From Deltaproteobacteria bacterium (GTDB lineage Bacteria; Desulfobacterota; Binatia; Binatales; Binataceae): a stretch of DNA of 50,522 nucleotides. The notes under the pieces are model-generated. The model ran no database searches. It saw only the letters and a program-made list of their open reading frames with translations, and was not told the origin of the DNA. Position 1 is the first letter of the stretch. Every line of letters begins with the position of its first letter. The stretch lies in NCBI GenBank assembly GCA_021799495.1, contig JAJZAI010000024.1:1-50522 (forward strand), written 5' to 3'. Both the position numbers and the translations under genes were made by a program. Below are positions 19,991 through 29,330 of this stretch, piece after piece.

Positions 19991-20155
19991 TAACCGAATC
20001 ACGACTTCGCACCACTATCCAGAACGCATCCAATGCATTGACTCTGCATGGAGAAGTCTCTAATCGATAAGATAGCCGTTTGGCGAATGGAACCGGCGGC
20101 GGTCGCGCGCAGCCGGGCGGTTGAAGGTACGCAACACGAATTTGGGGAGGGGGCC

Positions 20156-21385
20156 TTGCCGAGCGGGTTTCAAAGAAAAATCGCGCGGCGCGGATTGCGC
20201 CGCCTCACGCTGGCGCTCTGCGCGCTGGCGCTGATGCTTGCGCCGGCGCGCCGTGCGGATGCGGCCGAAGTCGTTTTTCCCGAACCTTCGGCGATTCAAC
20301 CCAACGTCAATTTCTGGGTGCAGGTTTTTTCGCAGTATTCCGAACGCGACTTCATTATTCATGATCGGGACAACATCCAGCGCGTTTACGAAGTTATGCA
20401 TCTGCCCGGCGGGGGCGACCCGACGCGCGAAGAGGTCGCGTACGTCAACGACTATCTGAAGAGCAAATATGCCTCGATTCTGAACCGCCTCGCCACGGGC
20501 GAAAAGCCGGTGACGTATGAGGACATCCGCGTCGCCAATATGTTCAGGGGCGAGCCGCGGGCGGCATGTGCGCTGGCGGCGCAAAACCTGCGGGTGCAGC
20601 AGGGACTGCGCGATCAGTTCCGCGAGGGTCTGCTGCGCAGCCGGTATTACCGGCCGACCATGGAGCGGATTTTCCGGTCTGCCGGACTGCCGCCGGAGCT
20701 GGTGACGCTGGCGACGGTCGAATCGGGCTTCTACAGCCGCGCGAAATCGAGCGCCGGCGCGGTCGGCATTTGGCAATTCACGCGCGGCACCGGCCGCCAA
20801 TACATGCGGATCACGCGCTGGCACGACGACCGGTTGAATCCCGATACCGAAACGCGCGCGGCGGCCGAGCTGCTGCGCTCGAACTATGATTCGCTGGGAA
20901 GCTGGCCGTTGGCGATAACCGCCTACAATTACGGCACCGGCGGCACCGAGATGGCGGCGTCGCAGTTCGGCGGCGATTACAACAAGATTGTGCGCGAGTA
21001 TAACGGGCCGCATTTCGGATTCGCCGCGCGCAACTATTACGCGGAATTTCTCGCGGCGCTCTACATCCACGAGAACGAAAACCGGATTTTCCCCGATCTG
21101 AAATACGACGAAGCGCCTCCGCCGCCGCCCGTCCGTACCGATTTCGCGCCGCCGCATCGCAGCCATCGATGGCGCCGATGGGGCGTGCATCGGGTGAGCG
21201 CGCATCATTCGGCAAGATCGCGTCGTCATCATCACCACACGGTCGCCCGCGCGACGAGGGCCCACCGAGTTCATGCGGCGGCGCATCAGTCGAAACGGCG
21301 GCTTGCGTCCGCACATTTGTCTCATCGGCGGGGCCGCCGCGAACGGATCGCGAATCGCGGCGCGCGTCATCGGGAAGACTCCTGA
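20156..21385 (+). CDS. lytic murein transglycosylase (SLT/MltD-like) with His/Arg-rich tail
   Basis: Cleaves peptidoglycan glycan strands in the periplasm. The chosen start is TTG at 20156, because GGGGAGGGGG stands just before it and the product then begins with an ideal signal peptide (basic ARRGLRR, hydrophobic LALCALALMLAP, cut near ADA, residues 1-36). An ATG at 20048 gives a longer product without a ribosome site. The SLT domain has the catalytic Glu, E189 in LATVESGFYSRAKSSAGAVG, then GIWQFTRGTGRQYM, DPDTETRAAAELL-type repeats and ITAYNYGTGG. The last 65-75 residues are almost only His, Arg, Ala and Ser (RRHHHHTVARATRAHR). That is not a LysM domain; it may bind metals or the cell wall. 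Confidence 0.88.
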   Translation: MPSGFQRKIARRGLRRLTLALCALALMLAPARRADAAEVVFPEPSAIQPNVNFWVQVFSQYSERDFIIHDRDNIQRVYEVMHLPGGGDPTREEVAYVNDYLKSKYASILNRLATGEKPVTYEDIRVANMFRGEPRAACALAAQNLRVQQGLRDQFREGLLRSRYYRPTMERIFRSAGLPPELVTLATVESGFYSRAKSSAGAVGIWQFTRGTGRQYMRITRWHDDRLNPDTETRAAAELLRSNYDSLGSWPLAITAYNYGTGGTEMAASQFGGDYNKIVREYNGPHFGFAARNYYAEFLAALYIHENENRIFPDLKYDEAPPPPPVRTDFAPPHRSHRWRRWGVHRVSAHHSARSRRHHHHTVARATRAHRVHAAAHQSKRRLASAHLSHRRGRRERIANRGARHREDS

Positions 21386-21585
21386 GCCTGTCTTCAGGGT
21401 TGCCGTCCACGGCGCCAAATTAACTGAAAAAATCGGCGGATGCGGCCTTTGCGGCGGCGTCGCCCGCCTGTTCCGCTTGCGTCTGAATCGGAAGCGTTCG
21501 CAAAGCGCATCCGTTAACGGTTCGGTCGCTGCCGAAGTTCGCGCGGACATTTTTGACGAGCCTGAGATTTTCCCGCTGGCGCGGC

Positions 21586-21614
21586 TTGACGGGACGGCTC
21601 CGGAATTGTAAGAA
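21586..21614 (+). promoter_or_regulatory. promoter of the Fur-box operon
   Basis: TTGACG (21586-21591), 17 bp, TAAGAA (21609-21614). The -35 is good and the -10 is weak. The predicted start site falls in the Fur box that follows immediately, the classic arrangement for iron repression. Confidence 0.45.
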
Positions 21615-21616
21615 AT

Positions 21617-21631
21617 TGATAGTCATTCTCA
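21617..21631. promoter_or_regulatory. Fur box
   Basis: TGATAGTCATTCTCA matches the 7-1-7 consensus TGATAATnATTATCA at 12 of the 14 defined positions, and the two differences are symmetrical. It lies 24 bp before the cupredoxin ATG. A Fur-family gene is in the same window (28824-29330). Confidence 0.75.
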
Positions 21632-21654
21632 ATTTCAACCGCGGGAGCATAGCG

Positions 21655-22008
21655 ATGCCTTGCAGGAAAAAAACGATTTTCACGTTTCTGACCGCCGCTG
21701 TCGCCGGCGTGATGGCTTTCAGCCAGCCCGTTCATGCGGCAGGCGCGACGGTCGCATCCGTCCGTTTCAGCGCGGATCATTTTGAGCCGGCTAAACTGAC
21801 GGTTCCGGCGAATCAACCTTTCAAAGTCGAAGTCACCAATGCCGATAAAAAGGCGATCGAGTTCGAAAGCTTCGATCTCCATCGTGAGCGCGTGGTGCGG
21901 CCCGGCGAGACCATTACGGTTTACATGGCGCCGACGGTGCCCGGCCATTACACGTTCTGCGACGATTTCGACCATAGCGTTGCCGAGGGCGCGATCGAAG
22001 CGCGCTGA
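21655..22008 (+). CDS. periplasmic cupredoxin-domain protein, FtrB-like
   Basis: 117 residues: signal peptide to about residue 28 (core FLTAAVAGVMAF, cut near VHA), then a single cupredoxin-fold domain. The segments LTVPANQPFKVEVTNADKKAIEFESFDLHRERVVRPGETI (residues about 48-87, potential ligands E69 and H76) and HYTFCDDFDH (C102, H107) resemble the cupredoxin of FtrB/EfeO-type iron uptake proteins, where a Fe/Cu oxidation role is known. A GGGAG ribosome site supports the ATG. It sits directly under a Fur box and is translationally coupled (TGATG) to a haem-binding protein. An FTR1-type permease, the expected partner, is absent here. Confidence 0.85.
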   Translation: MPCRKKTIFTFLTAAVAGVMAFSQPVHAAGATVASVRFSADHFEPAKLTVPANQPFKVEVTNADKKAIEFESFDLHRERVVRPGETITVYMAPTVPGHYTFCDDFDHSVAEGAIEAR

Positions 22009-22466
22009 TGAGCGGACGGACGCGCGGCTGGCTGATCGGCCTCGCGGCCATCGCGGCGATTCAGGTTTTGCGGATGCCGGTGCGCAACGGGCGCGAGCAG
22101 GGCGGTTTTGAGGCGCCTCCGGCCGTGCGGAGCGCCATTCTGACCGCCTGCTTCCAGTGCCATTCCGAACAACCACGATGGCCATGGTACACGCAGCTTG
22201 CTCCCGTCTCGTGGTTCATTCACGCACAGGTTGGCGAGGCGCGCAGACGGCTGAATTTCTCGACGTGGAAGGATTATCTCTACGATCCCGGAACGGCCGC
22301 GCGAAAGTTCGGCGCGATTAATCAGATGGTGCGCAGCGGCGCGATGCCGCCATGGTATTTCCGGATGCTGAGCGCGCGCGGCCGACTGACTCCGGCGCAG
22401 CGCACCGCAATCGAAACCTGGGCGATCGAAGGACGCGCGCAAGCCCTTAAAGCCGAACCCAACTAA
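22008..22466 (+). CDS. haem-binding domain protein (Haem_bd family, single CxxCH)
   Basis: 152 residues with an N-terminal membrane anchor or uncleaved signal (WLIGLAAIAAIQVLRM, about 8-23). The periplasmic part has CFQCH at 48-52, a c-type haem attachment site, followed by SEQPRWPWYTQLAPVSWFI, the typical Haem_bd context, and SGAMPPWYF near residue 114 where Met could be the second axial ligand. Relatives are small envelope cytochromes or haem proteins of unknown function. It overlaps the cupredoxin stop by one base, so the two should be made together and are under the same Fur box. An electron-transfer pairing with the cupredoxin is the obvious inference. Confidence 0.88.
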   Translation: MSGRTRGWLIGLAAIAAIQVLRMPVRNGREQGGFEAPPAVRSAILTACFQCHSEQPRWPWYTQLAPVSWFIHAQVGEARRRLNFSTWKDYLYDPGTAARKFGAINQMVRSGAMPPWYFRMLSARGRLTPAQRTAIETWAIEGRAQALKAEPN

Positions 22467-22480
22467 CCAATTATTCCAAT

Positions 22481-22506
22481 CTTTCCGCCGCCTGCGCGGC
22501 GAAAAG
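22481..22506. other. intercistronic hairpin
   Basis: Inverted repeat CTTTCCGCCGC / GCGGCGAAAAG around the loop CTGC, with one mismatch, between the haem-binding gene and the outer-membrane gene. There is no T-run after it, so it is more likely an mRNA-stability or attenuation structure than a full terminator. Confidence 0.4.
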
Positions 22507-22526
22507 AAAGAAAGCGTCGATTTTTT

Positions 22527-23342
22527 ATGGGCAACTTTTGCCTGACGATATTAGTGTGTTCGCTGGCCGTCTTCGCCGCCGCGCAAGCGTGTGCCCAGGT
22601 CGATCCGTGGGAGTTCGAGGTCTATCCGTATCAGACCGAAGGCGCCGGGATGCTTGAAATGGAATCGCTCAACGCGATCGTGCCGAACGGCCATTCGACC
22701 GGCGGGGACGGCACGGCCGCGGGCGAATTCGCCAGCCAGTGGATGTACTACACGTCGATCGAGGTCACCTACGGCCTTACCGATCACGTCGAGGCGGCCG
22801 CCTACCTGGATTTGGCGCGCCCGAACGGAGCCTCGCTGCAATACGCGGGCTCGAAATACCGCTTGCGCGGGCGGCTCTTCGAGCAGGGCGAGATGCCGAT
22901 CGATATGGGCTGGTATGCGGAACTGGAATGGCATCGAATCCCCCAGTTCGATGACGTTCCACTCGAACTCGAGTTGCGGCCGATTCTCGAAAAAGACATC
23001 GGGCGCGTCGAAATCGATCTCAATCCGATTTTCGAGAAAGCGATTTTTGTCGGTCCCTACAAGAATCAGGGCTTTGAATTCGGCTATGTTTCCGGCGTTT
23101 ATTACAACTGGCTCCGCAAAGTGTCGCCGGGTTTGGAATTCTACGGCGGAATCGGACTGATCGACGACAGCGATCCGCTCGCTCGCCAGCAACACTACAT
23201 TTTCCCGGTTTTGCGCGGCGCGCTCGACAACGGCCTCGAGTACAACTTCGGTCCCGGCTTCGGCCTGACGCGCGGCTCGGATCGTGTGATCACGAAATTC
23301 AATCTCGAATTCGAGCGTTACATCGGCGCGCTTTTCGAATAG
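22527..23342 (+). CDS. probable outer-membrane beta-barrel protein
   Basis: 271 residues with a signal peptide (MGNFCLTILVCSLAVFAAAQACA) ending before QVDPWEFEVYPYQTEG. The mature part alternates polar and aromatic/hydrophobic residues in short strands and turns (IEVTYGLTDHVEAAAYLDL, YAELEWHRI, FEFGYVSGVYYNWL, GLEFYGGIGLID) and ends in an F-E pair after ERYIGALFE, consistent with a 12-14 strand barrel. A few bacterial families of this kind are annotated only as hypothetical. It follows the Fur-controlled pair after a 60-bp gap containing a hairpin, so co-transcription is likely but not proved. The ribosome site is weak. Confidence 0.75.
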   Translation: MGNFCLTILVCSLAVFAAAQACAQVDPWEFEVYPYQTEGAGMLEMESLNAIVPNGHSTGGDGTAAGEFASQWMYYTSIEVTYGLTDHVEAAAYLDLARPNGASLQYAGSKYRLRGRLFEQGEMPIDMGWYAELEWHRIPQFDDVPLELELRPILEKDIGRVEIDLNPIFEKAIFVGPYKNQGFEFGYVSGVYYNWLRKVSPGLEFYGGIGLIDDSDPLARQQHYIFPVLRGALDNGLEYNFGPGFGLTRGSDRVITKFNLEFERYIGALFE

Positions 23343-28823: not shown

Positions 28824-29330
28824 ATGGCGCAGGGCGAAGAAGCGCGTGAGCGGACGCATCCACCGCCGGAACGGCGGTCTCGCGCCGGCGCCGAGGAGCG
28901 GATGCTCGCGTTCCATGAGCGCCTGCGCGAACGCGGGCTGAAATCGACCGGCCCGCGTGACGATATCGCGCGCGTATTCTTCGAACTCGGCCGCCATATC
29001 AGCGCGGAGGAGCTTTACGCCGAAGTCCGCAAGGTCAATCCGCACGTCGGCTATGCGACTATCTATAGAACGCTTAAGCTGCTTAAAGACTGCAATCTTC
29101 TGTTCGAGCGCCATTTCGAGGAAGGGCAGGCGCGTTACGAAGTGGCCGGCGAACACCATCACGACCACTTCATCTGCGAAAACTGCGGCCGGATTATCGA
29201 GTTCGAAAGCGACGAAATCGAACGGATGCAGGATTCGATCGCAAGCAAGCTCGGCGTCCTGTTGACCCATCACAAGATGGAGCTTTACGGGTTGTGCGGA
29301 GAATGCCGCGCCAAAAAGCCGTCAAGATAG
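28824..29330 (+). CDS. fur: Fur-family ferric uptake regulator
   Basis: Metal-dependent repressor, 168 residues with a 25-residue Arg/Glu-rich N-terminal extension (an ATG at residue 27 gives a more usual length). The winged-helix DNA-binding domain holds HISAEELYAEV and VGYATIYRTLKLLKDCNLL. The regulatory metal site HHHDHFICENCGRIIEF (111-127) and the structural Zn cysteines C118, C121, C158 and C161 are all present. It belongs to the Fur subgroup rather than Zur or PerR by the HHHDHxxC run, although these cannot be told apart with certainty. Its likely target is the Fur box at 21617-21631. An AAGG ribosome site precedes the ATG. Confidence 0.95.
   Translation: MAQGEEARERTHPPPERRSRAGAEERMLAFHERLRERGLKSTGPRDDIARVFFELGRHISAEELYAEVRKVNPHVGYATIYRTLKLLKDCNLLFERHFEEGQARYEVAGEHHHDHFICENCGRIIEFESDEIERMQDSIASKLGVLLTHHKMELYGLCGECRAKKPSR

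Follow-up and report, generated by a model that had tools for sequence, protein, structure and literature searches.

Candidate split ferrous-iron uptake system in a Candidatus Binataceae genome: a cupredoxin, cytochrome and beta-barrel gene trio behind a putative Fur box

A conserved trio of genes, encoding an FtrB-type cupredoxin, a mono-haem c-type cytochrome and a predicted outer-membrane beta-barrel, was found in the genome of an uncultured soil bacterium of Candidatus Binataceae (Binatota). Here, we propose that the trio probably belongs to a Fur-repressed system for ferrous-iron uptake, of the Ftr/Efe kind, that is split in two, the other half being an FTR1-family permease encoded in trans; we put the probability of this reading at roughly two in three. 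The sequences, protein families, fold predictions, gene order, conservation of the Fur box, the FTR1 gene in trans with its own box, and the FTR1 genes in cis in relatives were all computed here.

The source genome (G000) is 3.43 Mb long and 98% complete, and the named genomes closest to it are MAGs carrying the labels Deltaproteobacteria and Candidatus Binataceae, i.e., Binatota. The window, by which we mean the whole stretch of DNA that was analysed (50,522 nucleotides), is contig C75 of this genome. The features discussed are listed below, with positions in the window unless another contig is named.

21616-21632, no strand assigned: Fur box TTGATAGTCATTCTCAA (17-mer), ending 22 bp before the cupredoxin ATG; called by match to the clade consensus and by conservation
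21655-22008, plus strand: FtrB-type (Cup-II) cupredoxin, 117 aa with signal peptide (PF13473, E 2.5e-24)
22008-22466, plus strand: Haem_bd mono-haem c-type cytochrome, 152 aa (PF14376, E 1.1e-27; haem motif CFQCH)
22480-22507, plus strand: hairpin between the cytochrome and barrel genes (RNA fold -17.8 kcal/mol, z -1.2; weak, possibly a chance fold)
22527-23342, plus strand: predicted 12-stranded outer-membrane beta-barrel, secreted, 271 aa, with acidic lumen (AlphaFold model and fold matches)
28824-29330, plus strand: Fur regulator, the likely controller (PF01475, E 1.6e-39; top NCBIfam match ferric uptake regulator, below cut-off)
Contig C53, about 21361-22203, minus strand: lone FTR1-family permease gene (PF03239, E 8.3e-15; two REGxE motifs, REGLE and REGAE)

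Conservation of the gene order

The barrel, the Haem_bd family and the cupredoxin were searched for in 57 related genomes, the neighbourhoods were mapped, and the family counts were drawn from those coordinates. An orthologous barrel was found in 27 of the 35 genomes of the window's family, and 20 of the 35 keep the order cupredoxin-Haem_bd-barrel; conservation of this order in the clade, which the initial annotation had put forward as a check on its proposal, was thereby borne out. Four family genomes (G015, G018, G026, and G029) have the cupredoxin and barrel genes together without Haem_bd, as does a second copy of the locus in G022. In G024, the barrel stands by itself, on a different contig from cupredoxin-Haem_bd, and the locus is cut or rearranged in G005 and G011. 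Loci from named genomes (n = 32) comprise 18 full trios, 7 pairs alone, 3 sets with FTR1 in or beside them, and 4 lone barrels. Because the genes flanking the trio differ outside the window's genus, the conserved block consists of the trio genes alone. A murein transglycosylase (SLT domain, MltD-like) lies at 20048-21385, directly upstream of the Fur box, and holds that position only within the genus.

The operon of family f9 (G047, G054; L096, L099) has the order Fur-cupredoxin-FTR1-barrel, and the Fur encoded in the window has 62% identity to the Fur that directly precedes the cupredoxin-FTR1-barrel operon in L096. Across Binatota and Opitutaceae, the barrel adjoins the cupredoxin and the other partners vary. 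Of 148 genomes searched phylum-wide, only 3 have an ortholog or paralog of the barrel, and the set is therefore restricted to the class and a few Opitutaceae; no relative of the barrel was found in viral contigs.

MAGs labelled Opitutaceae (Verrucomicrobia; L090, L091, and L095) carry cupredoxin-barrel pairs resembling those of Binatota (55 to 59% identity to the nearest one for the cupredoxin, 65 to 69% for the barrel), owing either to horizontal transfer or to mislabelling of the MAGs. On contig C178 of G011 (L059/L077), a barrel open reading frame whose N terminus resembles the start of the Haem_bd protein is preceded by a 16/17 Fur box, with the cupredoxin missing, which reflects either a mid-operon deletion or an assembly error. 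In a UBA9160 MAG (L073, 5810-7831), a multicopper oxidase gene (PF07731, PF07732) follows the barrel gene with an overlap of a few bases, and no cupredoxin was found adjoining this barrel; the oxidase is possibly another ferroxidase partner.

The Fur box and a permease in trans

The initial annotation had reported a near-consensus Fur box ahead of the cupredoxin gene, and the box is indeed present, with a 15-bp core (TGATAGTCATTCTCA, 21617-21631) that matches 12 of 14 defined positions and is conserved in family relatives. A palindrome close to TTGAGAATCATTCTCAA precedes the cupredoxin in nearly all family copies (15 to 17 of 17 positions in most, 13 to 14 in a few), and for most of these copies none of 1000 dinucleotide-shuffled upstream sequences scored as high. 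The trio's own box agrees with the clade consensus at 15 of 17 positions, a match found in 0 of 1000 shuffles of its upstream region. Searched with the textbook Fur palindrome, the window gives one match versus 0.45 expected, which makes the box unremarkable alone; as a plain textbook match it is not significant, and it was accepted only via conservation. With the clade's own consensus, 0.06 matches are expected in the window, and by this measure the box does stand out. Overlap of the box with the transcription start, also claimed initially, was not supported, as the consensus sigma-70 promoter that overlaps the box lies on the minus strand only. Family f9 (13/17) and Opitutaceae (12 to 13/17) have weaker boxes, the L089 and L093 loci have none, and the lone barrels of G024 and G011 each have a Fur box of their own. 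Lying behind a Fur palindrome that is kept in relatives, the trio is a putative member of the Fur regulon, with Fur binding and an iron response predicted from the sequence.

A genome-wide scan with the pattern TTGANAATNATTNTCAA gave a single perfect match (C53:22214-22230) and two matches with one mismatch, namely, the trio's box and C25:2762-2778. The perfect match ends 10 bp ahead of the start codon (ATG) of the lone FTR1 gene. The encoded permease matches TIGR00145 with an E value of 1.1e-29, below the cut-off, and NF041756 (EfeU) with 75 bits (cut-off, 255). Of the 33 family genomes having FTR1, 31 combine the gene with a box that matches at least 14/17 positions. In L093, a 676-aa cytochrome c-FTR1 fusion is encoded just upstream of cupredoxin-barrel. 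No FTR1 was found in G016, which has the trio, in G011, or in the three Opitutaceae MAGs with cupredoxin-barrel.

The set had been described initially as having no permease, a description that holds for the operon and fails for the genome: FTR1 stands in trans behind the genome's best Fur box, so "no permease" describes the operon only, and the genome holds a split system. A complete lack of permease is ruled out by the genome-wide FTR1 and Fur-box searches. The accompanying idea of a system that works without a permease is not supported, given both this FTR1 in trans and relatives that have FTR1 inside or just upstream of the same operon. We infer a functional pairing of the trio with the FTR1 on the other contig, with the qualification that FTR1 occurs also in family genomes without the trio.

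These results bear on a reading in which the genes form a periplasmic iron or copper stress module, with a ferroxidase and an electron sink that lower free Fe2+ and no transport. A cupredoxin together with a peroxidase-type haem domain would suit such a detoxifying role, as would the multicopper oxidase gene overlapping the barrel gene in L073. Fur repression at plentiful iron is the opposite of what detoxification needs, and the FTR1 links also speak against the module, which we regard as very improbable.

A second Haem_bd protein is encoded in the same genome (C12:81384-81908; L066, 6385-6909, minus strand), and a three-mismatch Fur-like site (C12:81808-81824) overlaps its predicted 5' end; it is possibly a further member of the regulon.

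Proteins of the trio

The protein assignments of the initial annotation stand: an FtrB/EfeO-like cupredoxin, a CxxCH protein of the Haem_bd type coupled to it by a TGATG stop/start overlap (22006-22010), and a secreted beta-barrel-like protein. So does its proposal of an envelope iron module behind a Fur box; the module is conserved and combines a c-haem protein and a predicted beta-barrel with a cupredoxin of the FtrB type.

The best match of the cupredoxin is Brucella FtrB (8vuk) both by PDB sequence search (E 3.9e-20; next match, 2.6e-6) and by fold (model pLDDT 86.4; Z 16.7, rmsd 1.3 A over 89 residues), and the EfeO-type cupredoxin fold 7wgu gives Z 13.7. Brucella FtrB binds Mn2+ (as a mimic of Fe2+) via E84, E86, E93, and D119, requires D118 for Cu2+ binding, oxidises Fe2+ in vitro, and binds Cu2+ (PMC11966278). 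In 28 cupredoxin sequences, E69 and E71 (ExE), E78, D103, and D104 are invariant, and by alignment they are equivalent to the Fe/Mn and Cu ligands of FtrB. The position equivalent to FtrB H121 (position 106) is Asp in the window and its closest relatives, where His stands at 107, and is His in most other family members and in f9; H121 is variable among FtrB clusters too (PMC11966278). Because the Cu ligand H121 is not kept and varies among FtrB clusters, we use "FtrB-type" as a statement of homology only. Assignment as a type-1 blue copper protein was rejected, since the retained ligands are the FtrB set and not His-His-Cys.

The cytochrome has a single CxxCH motif, with C48, C51, H52, and M113 invariant in 18 sequences, and an N-terminal hydrophobic stretch (residues 7 to 21, by hydropathy) that resembles an inner-membrane anchor. 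In the PDB it matches best the N-terminal portion of a cytochrome c peroxidase (9qdt, E 9.6e-10), and it resembles the haem domain at the N terminus of a tri-haem peroxidase. In Escherichia coli YhjA, His63 and Met125 ligate the N-terminal haem, and quinol is its proposed electron donor (PMC10301912). The window protein shares with this type of domain (PF14376) the CxxCH, the distal Met at nearly the same spacing (61 residues for His52-Met113 versus 62 in YhjA) and the membrane anchor, but it stands alone, without the di-haem peroxidase part. It would serve as a membrane-anchored electron carrier.

Co-encoding of a c-haem protein and a barrel also invites another reading, in which the set would not serve uptake but would pass iron or electrons across the outer membrane, as a porin-cytochrome unit that oxidises or reduces iron outside the cell (extracellular Fe(II) oxidation or reduction); the porin-cytochrome Cyc2 oxidises Fe(II) (PMC8406198). 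We consider such a unit improbable. The Haem_bd protein has one haem and a membrane-anchor-like N-terminal segment, four family genomes keep cupredoxin-barrel without the cytochrome, as does the second copy of a fifth genome, FTR1 takes the cytochrome's place in f9, and the Fur box common to the trio and FTR1 points to iron nutrition. Electron transfer across the outer membrane had been suggested in the initial annotation and is not supported here, the cytochrome having an inner-membrane-anchor-like N terminus, being absent from several copies of the operon, and being replaced by FTR1 in f9. For the barrel, an outer-membrane iron channel appears to be the better reading.

The 271-aa secreted protein has no Pfam or NCBIfam match, and a PDB sequence search returned nothing meaningful, the informative matches coming only from the fold search. 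Its AlphaFold model (pLDDT 80.6, pTM 0.77) consists of a signal helix and 12 long strands, and its best fold matches, at about 9% identity, are FapF (5o68, Z 21.2) and a COG4313 channel (4rl8, Z 19.8, rmsd 3.6 A). When strand facing is taken from alternation and hydropathy and not from coordinates, 16 conserved acidic strand positions face in and 0 out, and 5 conserved basic positions face in and 2 out. Paralogs of the barrel in the same genomes have no Fur box (8 to 11 of 17, i.e., background). Acids occupy the conserved positions at 0.57 in paralogs versus 0.97 in iron-linked orthologs, with the C-terminal two positions refractory to alignment. Several lumen acids are common to the paralogs that are not iron linked, and part of the acidic pattern is therefore structural; those that mark the iron-linked orthologs are E44, D126, E147, D157, and E184. 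One paralog in the same genome (29% identity; C76:118789-119493, L062) adjoins a TetR-type-looking gene and has no Fur box, and many family genomes contain such paralogs.

The main rival to a split importer assigns the barrel a cargo other than Fe2+: the cupredoxin and FTR1 would import iron, and the barrel, as a general COG4313-like channel for another low-abundance ligand (e.g., an organic iron chelate or a hydrophobic compound), would share only the regulon. Its closest folds, FapF and a COG4313 channel, agree with this, the COG4313 family being implicated in uptake of hydrophobic molecules, as do paralogs at unrelated places without Fur boxes. Such a channel is nevertheless unlikely, given that the barrel stays beside the cupredoxin in Binatota and Opitutaceae while other partners vary, that split-off barrels (G024 and G011) have their own Fur box, and that the extra lumen acids mark the iron-linked orthologs.

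Proposed iron route and comparison with known systems

In the split importer that we favour, Fur would leave both boxes under iron shortage, which would open the trio operon and the lone FTR1 gene. Fe2+ would enter the periplasm through the acid-lined 12-strand barrel and would be bound at the Glu/Asp site of the FtrB-type cupredoxin, which would oxidise it or hold it for oxidation. By analogy to the place of FtrD in FtrABCD, the electron would pass to the membrane-anchored His/Met cytochrome and on to the respiratory chain, and Fe3+ would reach the cytoplasm via FTR1. In this scheme, we infer the metal specificity of the barrel, Fe2+ oxidation by the cupredoxin, the electron route, Fur binding, and the iron response. 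A fuller version, held tentatively and at somewhat less than even odds, has a dedicated Fur-controlled outer-membrane Fe2+ channel as an integral part of an FTR1-type system and a mono-haem cytochrome that takes the electron of Fe2+ oxidation, giving a complete route from outside to cytoplasm without FtrA/P19, TonB, or siderophore. Counting against a split importer are Opitutaceae and G016, in which no FTR1 was found, the L089 and L093 loci without a box, Asp at the His121 position in the genus, copies that lack the cytochrome, and lumen acids partly shared with paralogs.

Among known systems, FtrABCD (Brucella, Bordetella, and Burkholderia) likewise has an FtrB-type cupredoxin with ExE, Glu, and Asp-Asp ligands and an FTR1-family permease (in the role of FtrC), and in Brucella it is expressed under low iron (PMC11966278); its counterpart here lies behind Fur boxes. 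The window operon differs in having a c-type cytochrome and an outer-membrane barrel and no FtrD, in having Asp at the FtrB His121 position in the window's genus, and in not being one operon with its permease, which is on C53 while the trio is on C75. FtrA/P19 (PF10634) was found in 0 of 33 genomes searched, including G000, and full FtrABCD membership was ruled out for lack of P19. EfeUOB and EfeUOB-M share the EfeO-type cupredoxin fold and are comparable in their EfeU/Ftr1-family permease, although the FTR1 here scores below the TIGR00145 and NF041756 cut-offs; G000 has neither the imelysin M75 domain of EfeO (PF09375) nor the DyP peroxidase EfeB (PF04261), which is present in some relatives, and EfeUOB membership was excluded on these two absences. 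With no FtrA/P19, imelysin, or DyP, the system is thus neither a full FtrABCD nor an EfeUOB, and it may work like either. This combination, without FtrA/P19, an imelysin EfeO, or a DyP EfeB, differs from known Ftr/Efe systems, its transport, metal binding, and regulation being predictions from sequences and models. The P19/Ftr1 (FetMP) cluster of Campylobacter jejuni and Yersinia pestis has an FTR1-family permease, a Fur box, and a periplasmic iron-binding partner (PMC6083913), but the window genome is without P19.

Outer-membrane proteins implicated in ferrous-iron passage include FupA/FupB of Francisella and OmpC of E. coli (PMC7432831, PMC7315122). They are other proteins than the window barrel, FupA having 558 aa and FupB 482 aa. 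We know of no link between them and an FTR1 system. Compared with the literature of one open library, the surprising part, if true, would be a dedicated outer-membrane component of an FTR1-type system. The variable slot separating cupredoxin from barrel, which is taken by FTR1, taken by Haem_bd, or empty, points, together with the cytochrome c-FTR1 fusion, to c-haem as the electron acceptor in ferroxidation-coupled uptake. If true, the scheme would also give a specific prediction on iron nutrition in Binatota, which are described as yet uncultured (PMC8262859). The outer-membrane step of the C. jejuni FTR1-type system has been described as unidentified (PMC6083913); the barrel, which accompanies the FtrB-type cupredoxin in two lineages and in some relatives accompanies FTR1 as well, offers a concrete candidate for such a step.
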